Shown here: positions 4,285 to 17,184 of the stretch, in pieces
Layout of the letters: every line of letters starts with the position of its first letter
Numbering within the stretch: position 1 is the first letter of the stretch
Virus record (IMG/VR): IMGVR_UViG_3300030099_003698
Span: 1 to 20,403 of that record
Direction: 5' to 3' (one strand)
DNA: 20,403 nt
Source: a virus
Position numbers and translations under genes: made by a program
Notes under the pieces: model-generated
The model's input: the letters and a program-made list of their open reading frames with translations, nothing else
Database searches by the model: none
Told to the model about the DNA's origin: nothing

Positions 4285-4674
4285 CTATCCAAGATCTATA
4301 TCGACTCGTATGTCGCCAGCATGCAGATGCATATGCTTATCTGGGGCTTTGAAACCAGCACGATCTAAGAGATCCTTGCTAGCTTCCAGCTGGACATACT
4401 CGCTTTTCGCAGTGCCAGCTAGCTTGGTGACTGTCGACAGGGCTAACGTAGCTCTTACACCCATCTCCTGTCTCATCTTCTCCATCATATACGCTTGCAC
4501 ATGCGATTGTCCCAAAGCCTTGCTAGCACTCACTCTCCCACTCTCACCATCAGCATATCCCACAGCATGCGCGGCATCTTTCACAGTCCCGCCATTTGCT
4601 ACGAGGTAGTCTACTAGTGCAGTCTGCTTTCTGGTCAGCTTACGCTCTGTCTTGACTAGATTCATCGAACACAT
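4285..4674 (-). CDS. terS: Terminase small subunit
   Basis: The DNA-recognition subunit that selects viral DNA and hands it to the large terminase. The N-terminal third reads RKLTRKQTALVDYLVANGGT then VKDAAHAVGYADGESGRVSA. This is the typical small-terminase helix-turn-helix region (KQ..FV..Y...G....AA..AGY, then a Ser/Ala helix). The remaining residues are helical and would form the ring; the tail ends DIRVDIDLG. Two ATGs are possible, at 4674 and 4665. GAGG sits 3 bases before the first and 12 before the second, so neither spacing is ideal. The gene is separated from the large terminase by nine genes and lies next to a GC-rich structured intergenic region, a typical position for a packaging signal. 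Confidence 0.88.
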   Translation of the reverse strand: MCSMNLVKTERKLTRKQTALVDYLVANGGTVKDAAHAVGYADGESGRVSASKALGQSHVQAYMMEKMRQEMGVRATLALSTVTKLAGTAKSEYVQLEASKDLLDRAGFKAPDKHMHLHAGDIRVDIDLG

Positions 4675-4682
4675 AATCCTCA

Positions 4683-4698
4683 GTATGCTGGTGCATAC
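4683..4698. repeat. Perfect inverted repeat GTATGC-TGGT-GCATAC
   Basis: Six-base arms around a four-base loop, lying just upstream of the ribosome site of the small terminase gene. As RNA it could form a hairpin close to the translation start; as DNA it could be an operator. Confidence 0.55.
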
Positions 4699-4736
4699 CT
4701 GCGGAGTTTAAGAGGGTTCGTCAAGTAAAATCAAGT

Positions 4737-4748
4737 TGCAATATTGCA
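4737..4748. promoter_or_regulatory. 12-bp palindrome TGCAATATTGCA (candidate operator)
   Basis: A perfect 12-base palindrome with no spacer, in AT-rich sequence between the divergent genes. Size and symmetry fit a binding site for a dimeric regulator. No regulator gene is identified with certainty in the window, and a palindrome of this size can also arise by chance. Confidence 0.4.
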
Positions 4749-4774
4749 TTTCTCATTTGCGTATTCTGGTGTTC

Positions 4775-4789
4775 CGACTGTACTAGTCG
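4775..4789. repeat. Inverted repeat CGACT-GTACT-AGTCG with adjacent AGTCGT repeat
   Basis: Five-base arms around a five-base centre. AGTCGT occurs at 4785-4790 and again at 4793-4798, so one arm is also directly repeated. This could be an operator or part of a larger nucleoprotein site. Confidence 0.35.
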
Positions 4790-4814
4790 TGGAGTCGTAG
4801 TCCTCTCAAGGCGT

Positions 4815-4990
4815 GGTACGGGGTCATTCCCAACCGACTTGCCCCGACAGTACACCCTGGCTCACGGTTGCATACCCCCGCCCGCACCACTCGGGCTTCG
4901 CCCGACCGTGTTAGGGGTCGCGGCTTCGCCGCTATGCAACCCCTCACCAGTGTGTCATGTGGGGCGCGTAAGGTTGGGATGTCCCCAACC
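4815..4990 (+). other. GC-rich structured element (leader RNA, origin or packaging site)
   Basis: The core is an outer stem GGTTGCATA (4866-4874) with TATGCAACC (4933-4941), nine perfect pairs. It encloses two hairpins: TCGGGC-TTC-GCCCGA (4891-4905) and GCGGC-TTC-GCCGC (4920-4932). This makes a three-way-junction shape. On each side lies a related palindromic element: GGTACGGGGTCATTCCCAACC-like at 4815-4835 and GGTTGGG-ATGTC-CCCAACC at 4972-4990. The 4821-4835 and 4972-4985 segments can also pair with each other (13 pairs, one mismatch, one bulge). The last hairpin ends 21 bases before the ATG at 5012. The pairing is read directly from the sequence; the role is not known. Confidence 0.6.
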
Positions 4991-5011
4991 ACTTCTAGAG
5001 AGGAACTACAA

Positions 5012-5386
5012 ATGTCCAAGACAAAAGTACAATCGCAACACACCATGAACGTAAATGAGGTCATTTCATATTGCACCTCTGCTGATGACTCACCTGCATC
5101 TCAAACTTCGCAGGCACGCGGTCTAGCATACATGCACGATACAACGTGCGATTATCTACTCAAGACAATCGCTGATGTTCAAGCTGACATCGAATCCATT
5201 GATGCTGAATCAGACCGAGCCACAGAATCAATACAACTCTTAAAGAAAGAGAATCTGCTGACACGGCTCGTTGATGATTACAAAATCAACTTTGCAAAGA
5301 TGCAAGCCGCCATCGAGGTTCACGAGGCTTTCAAGGCTGACTATCAACAGTCTTACAAAATGCTTCACAAACCACAGCAGTTCTAA
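5012..5386 (+). CDS. Hypothetical helical protein, first early gene (124 aa)
   Basis: The product starts MSKTKVQSQHTMNVNEVISY. Its second half is a long charged helix (KTIADVQADIESIDAESDRA and on) typical of a coiled coil. There are no membrane segments and no enzyme motif. The start at 5012 is chosen because AGAGAGGA lies about seven bases upstream. The frame is open further back to 4868, but that stretch is the structured GC-rich element and gives an unlikely Arg/Pro-rich sequence. The gene is followed seven bases after its stop by a strong hairpin. As the first gene after the divergent region it could be an early regulator or host-takeover protein, but this rests on position alone. Confidence 0.78.
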   Translation: MSKTKVQSQHTMNVNEVISYCTSADDSPASQTSQARGLAYMHDTTCDYLLKTIADVQADIESIDAESDRATESIQLLKKENLLTRLVDDYKINFAKMQAAIEVHEAFKADYQQSYKMLHKPQQF

Positions 5387-5393
5387 GCAACAT

Positions 5394-5418
5394 GGAGCGA
5401 GGTTCACAGCCTCGCTCC
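5394..5418 (+). other. Intercistronic hairpin without U-tract
   Basis: GGAGCGAGG and CCTCGCTCC form a perfect nine-pair stem around a seven-base loop, seven bases after the stop at 5386. No T-run follows, so it is not a standard intrinsic terminator. It could be an RNA-processing or 3' end-protecting structure, or could need an accessory factor. Confidence 0.65.
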
Positions 5419-5429
5419 TACATTGCCTG

Positions 5430-5458
5430 TTGACAACTCAGTAATACTTATGCACAAT
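5430..5458 (+). promoter_or_regulatory. Sigma70-type promoter TTGACA-17-CACAAT
   Basis: The -35 is a perfect TTGACA at 5430-5435. The spacer is 17 bases, and the -10 CACAAT at 5453-5458 matches four of six. A start site near 5465 would place the ribosome site AAGGAG (about 5470-5475) very early in the message. It lies between the hairpin after the first gene and the small membrane-peptide gene at 5486, so the promoter would drive the main early block. Confidence 0.65.
5448..5456 (+). promoter_or_regulatory. DnaA-box match overlapping the promoter -10
   Basis: TTATGCACA fits the TTWTNCACA DnaA-box consensus and overlaps the -10 hexamer. Chance alone predicts about one match in a window of this length, so the location, not the match, is what makes it notable. 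The same early block encodes a protein with a DnaA domain IV-like DNA-binding motif. Confidence 0.4.
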
Positions 5459-8354: not shown

Positions 8355-8677
8355 GTAAAAGCAAAGCCAAGGGTACATACCATGAAAAGTTTTTTGTAAA
8401 ACTATTCAACTCACTTGGTATTCCTACCAAAAGACAGCCGTTATCTGGTTCTCTCGGTGGAGAATATTCTGGTGATTTGGTATTAGATTTTGATAGTCGG
8501 CAACTTATTGCCGAGGTCAAATACAGAAAGCAATCCAGCTTTCCATCACCATTTACAGTTTTAGAAAACAGAGATCTAGCAATCTACAAACGTGGGACAG
8601 ATCGTAAATGGTTACTAATAGTCCCAGGAGAACTAGTCGAGGAGATACTCAATGAACACCAGACCAAAAACACCTGA
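8348..8677 (+). CDS. Holliday-junction resolvase-like nuclease (Hjc/PD-(D/E)XK type)
   Basis: The 109-residue product starts MVSKSKAKGTYHEKFFVKLF. It shows the compact Hjc-type order: an early acidic residue (E13), SGSLGGEYSGDLVLDFDSRQ with D43, and EVKYRK with E56 and K58. These fit the Glu-Asp-Glu-X-Lys site of archaeal-type and phage junction resolvases. A branched recombination or replication intermediate would be the substrate, and the length is right for the family. AAAGGA lies about ten bases before the ATG. The 3' end overlaps the next gene by 26 bases. The exonuclease and annealing genes downstream in the same block support a recombination role. Another PD-(D/E)XK nuclease is the main alternative. 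Confidence 0.8.
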   Translation: MVSKSKAKGTYHEKFFVKLFNSLGIPTKRQPLSGSLGGEYSGDLVLDFDSRQLIAEVKYRKQSSFPSPFTVLENRDLAIYKRGTDRKWLLIVPGELVEEILNEHQTKNT

Positions 8678-8957
8678 AGAAAAACGTTATCGTAAATTTC
8701 AGATGACTGATCTGATCAGACAAACTCTTGATGCAGAAGAAGTATCATCATTTGATTTTTATGGCAGACGTAAAGACAATCCACATGTAATAGAAACCAG
8801 GCAAAAGATTTGTTTTATGTTACAGGAACGTGGGTTTTCTACACCTGAGATTGGCGAAATGATTGAGCGTGACCACACAACAGTCATGTACAATATCAAA
8901 CAATATAAACAACGTATGAAGAAAAAGAACAATGGAACTCAATCATCATCAACGTGA
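8652..8957 (+). CDS. DnaA domain IV-like DNA-binding protein
   Basis: A 101-residue protein starting MNTRPKTPEEKRYRKFQMTD. Residues about 50-85 read ICFMLQERGFSTPEIGEMIE then RDHTTVMYNIKQY. This matches the helix-turn-helix and the signature RDHTTV (73-78) of DnaA domain IV, the part that binds DnaA boxes. No ATPase (AAA+) domain is present, so the protein cannot act as a full DnaA. It might bind DnaA-box-like sites to regulate early transcription, mark a phage origin, or compete with host DnaA. The start lies inside the resolvase gene with GAGGAGAT just upstream. It overlaps the next gene by 26 bases. Confidence 0.8.
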   Translation: MNTRPKTPEEKRYRKFQMTDLIRQTLDAEEVSSFDFYGRRKDNPHVIETRQKICFMLQERGFSTPEIGEMIERDHTTVMYNIKQYKQRMKKKNNGTQSSST

Positions 8958-15018: not shown

Positions 15019-17184
15019 CTAAGCATTTGTGAAGTGAAACCCTATTCCAATAATTCGGGTACCAGCATTGAGTGTGTCATTAGCGGATGTACCAGCTTGC
15101 ACTAAATTTATTTTTGACCCTGAAATATTTATATAACCACCTTGTATTCCATCGGCTGTTGCAAAAGCTATGTGCATCGCACCAAATGACCCATCGGGCG
15201 TAAAAGGTAAATTCTCAATAAACTGAGTGGCTGTTGAGCCAGCGGCAGATGTAGCATCCATGACTAAAAAAACAGCACGACCAATTTTTGTATATCTGCA
15301 AGGAGTAGATTGCGTCATCGTATTGCCGCCGTGCGTTGGCGACCAAGTGCCTTCTTCATAATCATCCAGCGCATTGGCGGCGGCTGTGTCTCCGTTAAAG
15401 GTTAGGCCACCGCTTGACAGGATACGAAGACGCTCATTAAGTCCGTTTGTATAAAACGCAAGTGTATCTGCGGCAGGAGTTCCAATATAACCATGTGCAG
15501 TAGAACCATCATTTTCCACAAACTCAATCAAACCAAATTCGTCTGCCGACCTTGCCCGAACCCTCAGTGAAACACCATTTGTATTGGCAACAGAATCAAC
15601 AGGTGCGGCTGGTGACGCAGTTCCAAATCCAACCCGATTATTCGTGCTGTCTACCTTCAGGGTGTTGGTGTCAAATGCAACATCACCAGTAATGCCACCA
15701 CTAAATCCAACAGCACCACTAAACGTGCCACCAGAAGTTTTGGAAACCATATCTGCGGTAGTAAAGGATTTGAAAGCATAGATGTTTATCTGGTCGCCAA
15801 GCGTAGCTCCGCTATCCAGCACAACGCTAGTGCCGTTGGTTGCAGTAAAATCTGCTGGATCAAGCACCACACCATTCATCACAACCTGGAGATTGTCTAC
15901 GGTGTAGGACAGTGTTGCACTGTTATCGTCACTGCCTGAGAATGTAGTCTGCCCTGCGGTTGCGGTGTACTCATACAGGATAAGAGAAACATTGCCAGCC
16001 GAGGTTGCGGCTATCCAGTTTGCACCATCATATACGCGCATCTCATTGGCACTATCATTAAAATATAAAGCACCTGCAACTAAGGCGTTTCCATCATTGT
16101 CTACTGTGGGATTGCTAGATTTTACCCCAAGGTAACGATCATCAAAACTATCCAAAGCTGTAGCCGCACTTGCCGCAGAAGCCGCCGCCGCAGTCTCGGA
16201 AGATGCCGCCGCAGTTGCAGAGCTAGCCGCCGCTGTAGCAGATGAAGCTGCTGCTGTTGCTGATGATGCGGCTTCTGTTGCTTTTGTAGTAGCAGTTGTA
16301 GCTGATGTTGCCGCTTCAGATGCTTTTGTGGTGGCTGTGCTAGCAGAAGTAGATGCGTTAGTTGCACTAGTAGCCGCTTCACTTGCTTTAGTCGTAGCTG
16401 TTGATGCACTGCTAGCGGCATTGGTAGCACTTGTACTTGCTTCACTAGCCTTTGTGGTAGCTGTAGTAGCATTAGTAGCGGCAGATGTAGCAGAACTTGC
16501 CGCATTTGTTTCACTAGTGCTTGCATTGCTAGCTGATGTTGATGCCTCTGATGCTTTAGTTGTTGCTGTGCTTGCTGAAGCCGCCGCGCTGGTTGCACTG
16601 CTAGCCGCATTTGTAGCTTGTGTAGGAGCGGCAGTAATAGCAGAAATATTGTTAGCACAAGTTTCAATATCTGCCGCTTGATCTGCAACAGTTTGCGTAG
16701 CTGTAATAGTCGGGCCAGCCTCCACAGCACCAGTAGTGGAGTTAAATGCCAGCACCTTGCCAGCACGACCAGTAACATTTGGAAGAGTAACGCTGACATC
16801 AGTATCGCTATCAGAAAGAGTGATGCCACGACTTGCAAGATCCTCAAGATCTGCAATCATAGCAATAATCTTATCTAACTCTGTGTTAAGAGATGCAACC
16901 TGGAATGGCCCCGAAGATGGGAAGTCAGTTGTTCTTTGGAGTGTTACATCACGAGTAATAATAACTTTGTCATTTACTGTTGCACCTGATGTAAGTGTAA
17001 CAGTGCCAGTAGAACCACTACCCCCACTCACTGTATAGTGAGTAGTAATAGTTTTAAGTGTTTCATTTATATACACATTTAGGTCTGAGTTATCAAAAAA
17101 CTCAAACGGAACAGTAAATGCTGTTTGTCCAGCAGTTGCTGTATACGCTATGCGTGGATTATTATCTGCAATACTTATAGTCAT
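15019..17184 (-). CDS. Tail fibre protein with T7-type N-terminus and Ala/Ser/Thr-rich shaft
   Basis: A 721-residue protein. Residues about 10-110 (YTATAGQTAFTVPFEFFDNS, then LNVYINETL and VIITRDVTLQRTTDF) look like the T7 tail-fibre N-terminal domain that docks to the tail. Residues about 185-345 are a low-complexity Ala/Ser/Thr shaft with repeats of TATTKASEA. A second YTATAGQT-type module starts near residue 404. The C-terminal part (NRVGFGTASPAAPVDSVANT, then DDYEEGTWSP) is the beta-rich tip type common in fibre proteins. A possible ATAGG/CCTAT hairpin spans the ribosome site and ATG. Six-frame open reading on the other strand across the shaft is a repeat artefact. Role: host recognition. 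Confidence 0.9.
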   Translation of the reverse strand: MTISIADNNPRIAYTATAGQTAFTVPFEFFDNSDLNVYINETLKTITTHYTVSGGSGSTGTVTLTSGATVNDKVIITRDVTLQRTTDFPSSGPFQVASLNTELDKIIAMIADLEDLASRGITLSDSDTDVSVTLPNVTGRAGKVLAFNSTTGAVEAGPTITATQTVADQAADIETCANNISAITAAPTQATNAASSATSAAASASTATTKASEASTSASNASTSETNAASSATSAATNATTATTKASEASTSATNAASSASTATTKASEAATSATNASTSASTATTKASEAATSATTATTKATEAASSATAAASSATAAASSATAAASSETAAAASAASAATALDSFDDRYLGVKSSNPTVDNDGNALVAGALYFNDSANEMRVYDGANWIAATSAGNVSLILYEYTATAGQTTFSGSDDNSATLSYTVDNLQVVMNGVVLDPADFTATNGTSVVLDSGATLGDQINIYAFKSFTTADMVSKTSGGTFSGAVGFSGGITGDVAFDTNTLKVDSTNNRVGFGTASPAAPVDSVANTNGVSLRVRARSADEFGLIEFVENDGSTAHGYIGTPAADTLAFYTNGLNERLRILSSGGLTFNGDTAAANALDDYEEGTWSPTHGGNTMTQSTPCRYTKIGRAVFLVMDATSAAGSTATQFIENLPFTPDGSFGAMHIAFATADGIQGGYINISGSKINLVQAGTSANDTLNAGTRIIGIGFHFTNA
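16140..16630 (-). repeat. Low-complexity Ala/Ser/Thr-coding repeat in fibre shaft
   Basis: The coding DNA repeats units that translate as variants of STATTKASEA-STSATNAASSA, about 160 residues in all, then ends with four near-identical SSATAAA units. The repeats are imperfect at the base level but strongly similar at the protein level. Slippage or unequal exchange here could change the fibre length. Confidence 0.8.

Follow-up and report, generated by a model that had tools for sequence, protein, structure and literature searches.

The 76-base fold at 4866-4941 of this phage DNA is the apex of a much larger structure, a bulged inverted repeat of 449 nt (hereafter the rod) that reaches into the start of a neighboring gene, gene 1. 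Rod and gene 1 go together among relatives, complementarity is kept while both arms change, and the non-coding arm tracks the gene. The two look like an undescribed two-part phage module, and no description of it was found in the literature searched. Selection appears to act on the rod as a single-stranded molecule, most probably an RNA of late sense, antisense to gene 1, that would be its cis-encoded regulator or partner. We give this reading a probability of about 45%.

The apical fold and the rod that contains it

The window, that is, the whole stretch of DNA analyzed, is a 20,403-base phage fragment from IMG/VR. The 76-base fold sits in the divergent gap between terS and gene 1, and the features referred to below are these.

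4285-4674, minus strand: terS, terminase small subunit (PF03592, phrog_2538), the divergent neighbor of gene 1
4683-5131, either strand: giant bulged inverted repeat (the rod), 449 nt with 159 Watson-Crick pairs, from the self-complementarity alignment and folds of both strands
4701-4748, minus strand: block at the rod's left base, GCGGAGTTTAAGAGGGTTCGTCAAGTAAAATCAAG plus TTGCAATATTGCA, conserved in relatives whose rod is unrelated or absent
4866-4941, either strand: apical domain, closing stem 4866-4874/4933-4941, fold z -4.05
4882-4910, either strand: conserved core module, CCGCACCACT, the hairpin at 4891-4905 and ACCGTG, in several phage lineages with differing outer stems and compensated hairpins
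4920-4932, either strand: second TTC-loop hairpin, present in the closest relatives only (L084, L086 and L085)
4972-4990, plus strand: local hairpin GGTTGGGATGTCCCCAACC upstream of the Shine-Dalgarno sequence of gene 1, which pairs within the rod too; compensated as GGTCGGGACAGTCCTGACC in L009
4997-5014, plus strand: Shine-Dalgarno sequence (AGAGAGGAAC) and start codon (ATG) of gene 1, both in the right arm
5012-5386, plus strand: gene 1, encoding a helical protein of 124 aa that evolves fast; it accompanies the rod in every strong-rod locus
5394-5418, plus strand: strong terminator-like hairpin ending the gene 1 unit; relatives have canonical U-tract terminators here
5430-5458, plus strand: promoter-like site (TTGACA-17-CACAAT), separate, for the other early genes; L002, L009 and Hodr have sites with 11/12 matches in this position

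The preliminary description had reported a three-way junction enclosing two perfect hairpins. Its elements are present: a perfect nine-pair stem joins GGTTGCATA (4866-4874) to TATGCAACC (4933-4941), and the hairpins TCGGGC-TTC-GCCCGA (4891-4905) and GCGGC-TTC-GCCGC (4920-4932) both carry TTC loops. However, the first inner arm is not a single perfect hairpin, as hairpin 1 sits atop two short stems with C-rich internal loops between them (CCGCACCACT/ACCGTG), and the junction is only the apex of the larger rod. The order was correctly judged to be above chance, since the minimum free energy of the fold as RNA was -39.4 kcal/mol (z -4.05) and none of 200 shuffles equaled it. The opposite strand of the same 76 bases gave -40.2 (z -3.12); at the apex the minus strand has purine triloops, including two GCGAAGC-type hairpins. 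The absence of a known riboswitch was likewise borne out, with no Rfam family matching at the gathering threshold in the window or in 16 relatives. A permissive Rfam scan returned weak matches at chance level only. Bacterial genomes were also scanned for the core pattern; a usable stem was present in two of the 20 matches, and both of these read as coding sequence.

The extent of the rod was determined with a symmetric self-complementarity alignment in which Watson-Crick pairs alone were scored, so the alignment favors neither strand. The apical motif makes up the innermost sixth of the repeat. The whole span folded with z values of -12.4 (plus strand) and -14.8 (minus strand), and the sub-span 4780-5011 folded as one rod at -120.9 kcal/mol (z -7.3). 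The palindrome score of 294 is unique in the window, where the median is 52 and the next-best place reaches about 85. The right arm contains the ribosome site, the start codon and the first 40 codons of gene 1. Comparable rods of 0.2-1.4 kb occupy the same place in many marine phages, including the nearest cultured relative, Pelagibacter phage EXVC031P Hodr (TerS identity 50%), whose rod has an apex related to that of the window (TGCCCGC...CCGTGTTG). The longest uninterrupted helix run in these rods is mostly 8-15 bp. In L353 the rod around gene 1 is broken by dozens of one-base bulges at intervals of a few to about a dozen bases. Most of them are in the coding arm, with 31 in the gene region, which gives the impression that perfect helices are interrupted on purpose. 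Vibrio phages with a distantly related virion protein showed no such palindrome. At the divergent junction of the abundant pelagiphage HTVC010P (L288; about 34351-34892 and 1-300) there is a weak, AT-rich symmetric region that is only modestly above background and gives no clean rod fold; it might be a decayed or distant counterpart.

The conserved block at 4701-4748 is a possible terS late promoter and operator. It consists of GCGGAGTTTAAGAGGGTTCGTCAA followed by TGCAATNATGCAACA-type repeats, is also found upstream of terS in L001, L005-L010, L243 and L256, and is highly conserved even beside unrelated rods; HTVC010P carries a similar TTATGCAACA repeat. In other relatives (L026-L049) the late strand of the terS leader contains two runs of G7 (GGGGGGGATTACAGGGGGGG type), in L037 for example at most 60 bases from the terS start, which could be a packaging or promoter signal. 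No consistent sigma-70 promoter was found at the apex or the rod ends, the exception being a good site near the apex in Hodr; nor did the DNA to the right of the rod yield a convincing late-sense promoter. Transcripts arriving from the right could also be halted by the hairpin that follows gene 1.

The early genes to the right of gene 1 encode an ArdC-type antirestriction protein, a DnaA C-terminal-domain protein, a Holliday-junction-resolvase-like protein, a YqaJ/RecE-type exonuclease, ERF and SSB, and no DNA polymerase was recognized in the window fragment. The DnaA C-terminal domain (DNA-binding, PF08299) stands alone in its gene (8652-8957, plus strand), and a DnaA-box-like TTATGCACA (5448-5456, plus strand) overlaps the -10 element of the promoter-like site after gene 1. 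A tail-fiber-like protein (15019-17184, minus strand) has a long Ala/Ser/Thr repeat region (STATTKASEAATSATNAST...). No tRNA or tmRNA was found.

Rod and gene 1 among relatives

The preliminary description had named an alignment of relatives lacking compensatory changes as grounds for abandoning the fold, and the fold stands because such changes proved to be abundant. The closing stem of L084 (GATTGCATA/TATGCAATC) has a G-C to A-T change, and that of L243 has been wholly replaced and is still complementary (TGTGGTCTA/TAGACCACA). The core, CCGCACCACT-hairpin-ACCG, recurs within other outer stems with the hairpins CGGGC/GCCCG, CGCC/GGCG, TGGC/GCCA and TCTGGC/GCCAGA, and in L243 and L256 a short GCTGTCGC segment takes the place of the second hairpin. 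Over the whole rod, the comparison of the window with L243 gave 19 doubly changed pairs that preserve Watson-Crick pairing, against 0-7 in slid controls; with the closer L003 the excess was small (6 versus 0-2). The outer left arms in L243 and L256 are unrelated, and each is complementary to its own gene 1. Fold and compensation were thus rightly anticipated, but the element is six times longer than had been described, includes a gene start and is part of a rod-plus-gene module.

The protein partner is variable. Gene 1 proteins are 118-177 aa long across loci, and among relatives their identity to that of the window ranges from 6 to 62%. The protein of the window belongs to no Pfam or PHROG family. 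Its predicted structure is a long helical hairpin (pLDDT 81), and a structure search with this model returned no significant match.

Among loci selected by terS, all 30 with a palindrome score of at least 147 have gene 1, as the first gene in the early direction, while it was found in 0 of the 27 that score lower. Presence of gene 1 was called by an HMM (E < 1e-4). Since this profile had been trained on rod-bearing loci, we carried out a prospective test on new loci, which were fetched by gene 1 protein similarity alone and freed of redundancy (n = 27). A giant inverted repeat surrounds the start of gene 1 in all 27. Their rod scores were 109-990 compared with 43-107 for shuffles, and 25 of them outscored every control window (maximum 121). 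In at least 10 of the prospective loci, arms of 540-750 bases span the whole of gene 1. The arm opposite the gene is non-coding in such whole-gene rods, with open frames of at most 70 codons and frame-breaking bulges. Rods persist across gene 1 proteins of 25-35% identity.

Strand asymmetry and the nature of the molecule

There is a clear strand bias in the mismatches of the rods. Opposed mismatches were counted in the strand-neutral alignments. On the plus strand of the first set (27 rods), A.C outnumbered G.T by 232 to 85 where composition predicts 162 to 134, and in the independent prospective set by 604 to 248. Isolated mismatches in both sets gave 249 A.C versus 47 G.T, 85 A.A versus 20 T.T and 61 C.C versus 17 G.G, and leaned the same way in 34 of 35 loci and the opposite way in none. 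Read on the late-sense (minus) strand, the favored mismatches become G.U, U.U and G.G, the ones that an RNA helix tolerates best. The minus strand also folded better in 24 of the 27 first-set loci (-813 versus -638 kcal/mol in L313), a difference explained in part by base composition. A strand-specific composition bias was considered as the cause of the asymmetry and rejected, as a 2.4- to 4-fold residual was left after correction for arm composition.

Several observations complicate the assignment of this bias to a strand. The asymmetry of the window itself is weak (9:9 over the whole rod and 4:3 for isolated mismatches). The strand-neutral C.T/A.G mismatches are not depleted, which fits poorly with a plain rule that the minus strand prefers stable mismatches, and the letters of one-base bulges show no polarity matching that of the mismatches. 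The plus strand could instead be avoiding the soft mismatches G.U, U.U and G.G. Single-stranded DNA, moreover, follows pairing rules similar to those of RNA. We nevertheless infer that the bias reflects a minus-strand RNA; the choice of RNA over DNA, the strand, the timing and the action of the rod are likewise inferences. The preliminary description had suggested a leader RNA in the early transcript, which is doubtful because the mismatch spectrum favors the fold of the opposite, late-sense strand. Its other suggestion, a DNA cruciform, would not by itself predict strand-asymmetric mismatches.

We propose that a self-folded RNA of late sense, which in the window corresponds to the minus strand and is antisense to gene 1, may be made around the early/late switch. 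It may be a stable RNA, encoded in cis, that regulates gene 1 or serves as its partner. The antisense arm would cover the ribosome site of gene 1, and the opposite arm would keep that antisense sequestered in the fold until it is opened or processed. With bulges and mismatches so frequent, uninterrupted helices stay short, which would limit cutting by RNase III. More tentatively, and at odds somewhat short of even, the rods may represent a hitherto undescribed class of giant bulged RNAs of 0.2-1.4 kb that are selected in the late sense, have a partner protein gene on the opposite strand of one arm in an HDV-like layout and reside in abundant marine DNA phages.

Other explanations involving RNA were weighed against the same data. 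If the early transcript begins left of the rod, the ribosome site of gene 1 would be buried in a plus-strand hairpin, and translation would wait for processing, a helicase or a protein. Complementarity indeed peaks around the Shine-Dalgarno sequence and ATG held in the right arm (83% Watson-Crick), and a plus-strand terminator ends the gene 1 unit, with a separate promoter beyond it in several relatives. Yet G.U, which would be harmless to such a lock, is among the rarest plus-strand mismatches (A.C 54 versus G.T 4 in the Shine-Dalgarno zone), no promoter was found left of the rod, and a rod over a whole gene is far more than a lock needs. We consider this mRNA lock rather unlikely. A similarly low likelihood is given to a long structured RNA that is bound by the gene 1 protein and acts in trans, either as a decoy for host RNases or immune sensors or in packaging. 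The length and bulged form of the rods are in line with this, as is a predicted helical protein that is always beside them, but no trans target is known and the structure search with gene 1 gave nothing significant.

Two further explanations place the rod in DNA. The minus strand, which is the template of gene 1, may fold as single-stranded DNA and serve, for instance, in initiation or priming or as a protein-recognized hairpin. Strand asymmetry is compatible with a single-strand origin, an element at which ssDNA is converted to dsDNA in one orientation; the stable minus-strand mismatches, the purine triloops and the GCGAAGC-type apex hairpins suit DNA as well as RNA, and the early genes include recombination and DnaA-like proteins with no polymerase recognized. 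It would not account for rods that accompany gene 1 and are lost when it is, and we know of no double-stranded DNA phage that needs a strand-specific hairpin of 0.5-1.4 kb; we regard it as distinctly unlikely. More improbable still is a palindrome with little function of its own that is maintained by a copying process, either template switching or gene conversion, acting on the inverted copies of the gene 1 region. The arms are inverted copies that include whole genes, and template switching can generate compensated changes. Such correction, however, would give long perfect stretches and no asymmetric spectrum, whereas bulges are frequent, the asymmetry runs 34:0 by locus and the rods are maintained across proteins of only 25-35% identity.

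Comparison with known systems

Hepatitis delta virus RNA and the obelisks are self-complementary rod RNAs, about 1-1.7 kb in length, in which a small helical protein is encoded along one arm, for HDV on the strand complementary to the genomic rod. The predicted rod fold and the small protein in one arm are alike here. In contrast to those RNAs, which are circular, replicate independently and lack a DNA copy, the present rod belongs to the genomes of DNA phages, the deposited Hodr genome among them. Nothing points to circular RNA, ribozymes or RNA replication, and gene 1 has no recognized homolog. Because it is DNA-encoded and there is no evidence of RNA replication, we do not file the rod under HDV or the obelisks; the module may be a DNA-borne counterpart to such rod-shaped infectious RNAs.

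In type I toxin-antitoxin systems of the hok-sok type, an expressed antisense RNA, which overlaps the ribosome site of a small gene with a highly folded leader, represses a toxic peptide. The overlap is shared, here at the level of sequence, but the putative antisense can reach 1.4 kb and is paired with itself over almost its entire length. The put RNAs of HK022 are phage leader RNAs of about 70 nt that have two adjacent stem-loops and bring about antitermination by direct binding to RNA polymerase. Two adjacent stem-loops are also found near the apex here, as part of a 0.2-1.4 kb rod linked to one gene. The promoters of the N4 virion RNA polymerase are hairpins in the template strand of an early gene, with short stems and purine loops of three bases. 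The apex shares these features, but it belongs to a giant rod. An N4-type promoter was rejected, as a Pfam scan of the large virion proteins of the window (a fragment) and of Hodr detected no virion RNA polymerase.

The cabRNA of staphylococcal phages, which is about 400 nt long and has double-stranded segments, comes from within the terS-terL coding sequence (PMC10686824). It resembles the putative rod RNA in being partly double-stranded and in its origin from the terminase region, but the rod lies upstream of terS rather than within terS and into terL, forms a single long structure and is tied to gene 1. If it is an RNA, the rod would be among the longest conserved rod-like RNAs of bacterial viruses, made with a dedicated protein gene, and the module would offer a new antisense or RNA-protein mechanism and a possible target or decoy for defenses that sense double-stranded RNA. 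A hairpin arm that tracks a changing gene over its full length, in many marine phages and among them a cultured SAR11 phage, is hard to fit to known phage elements.
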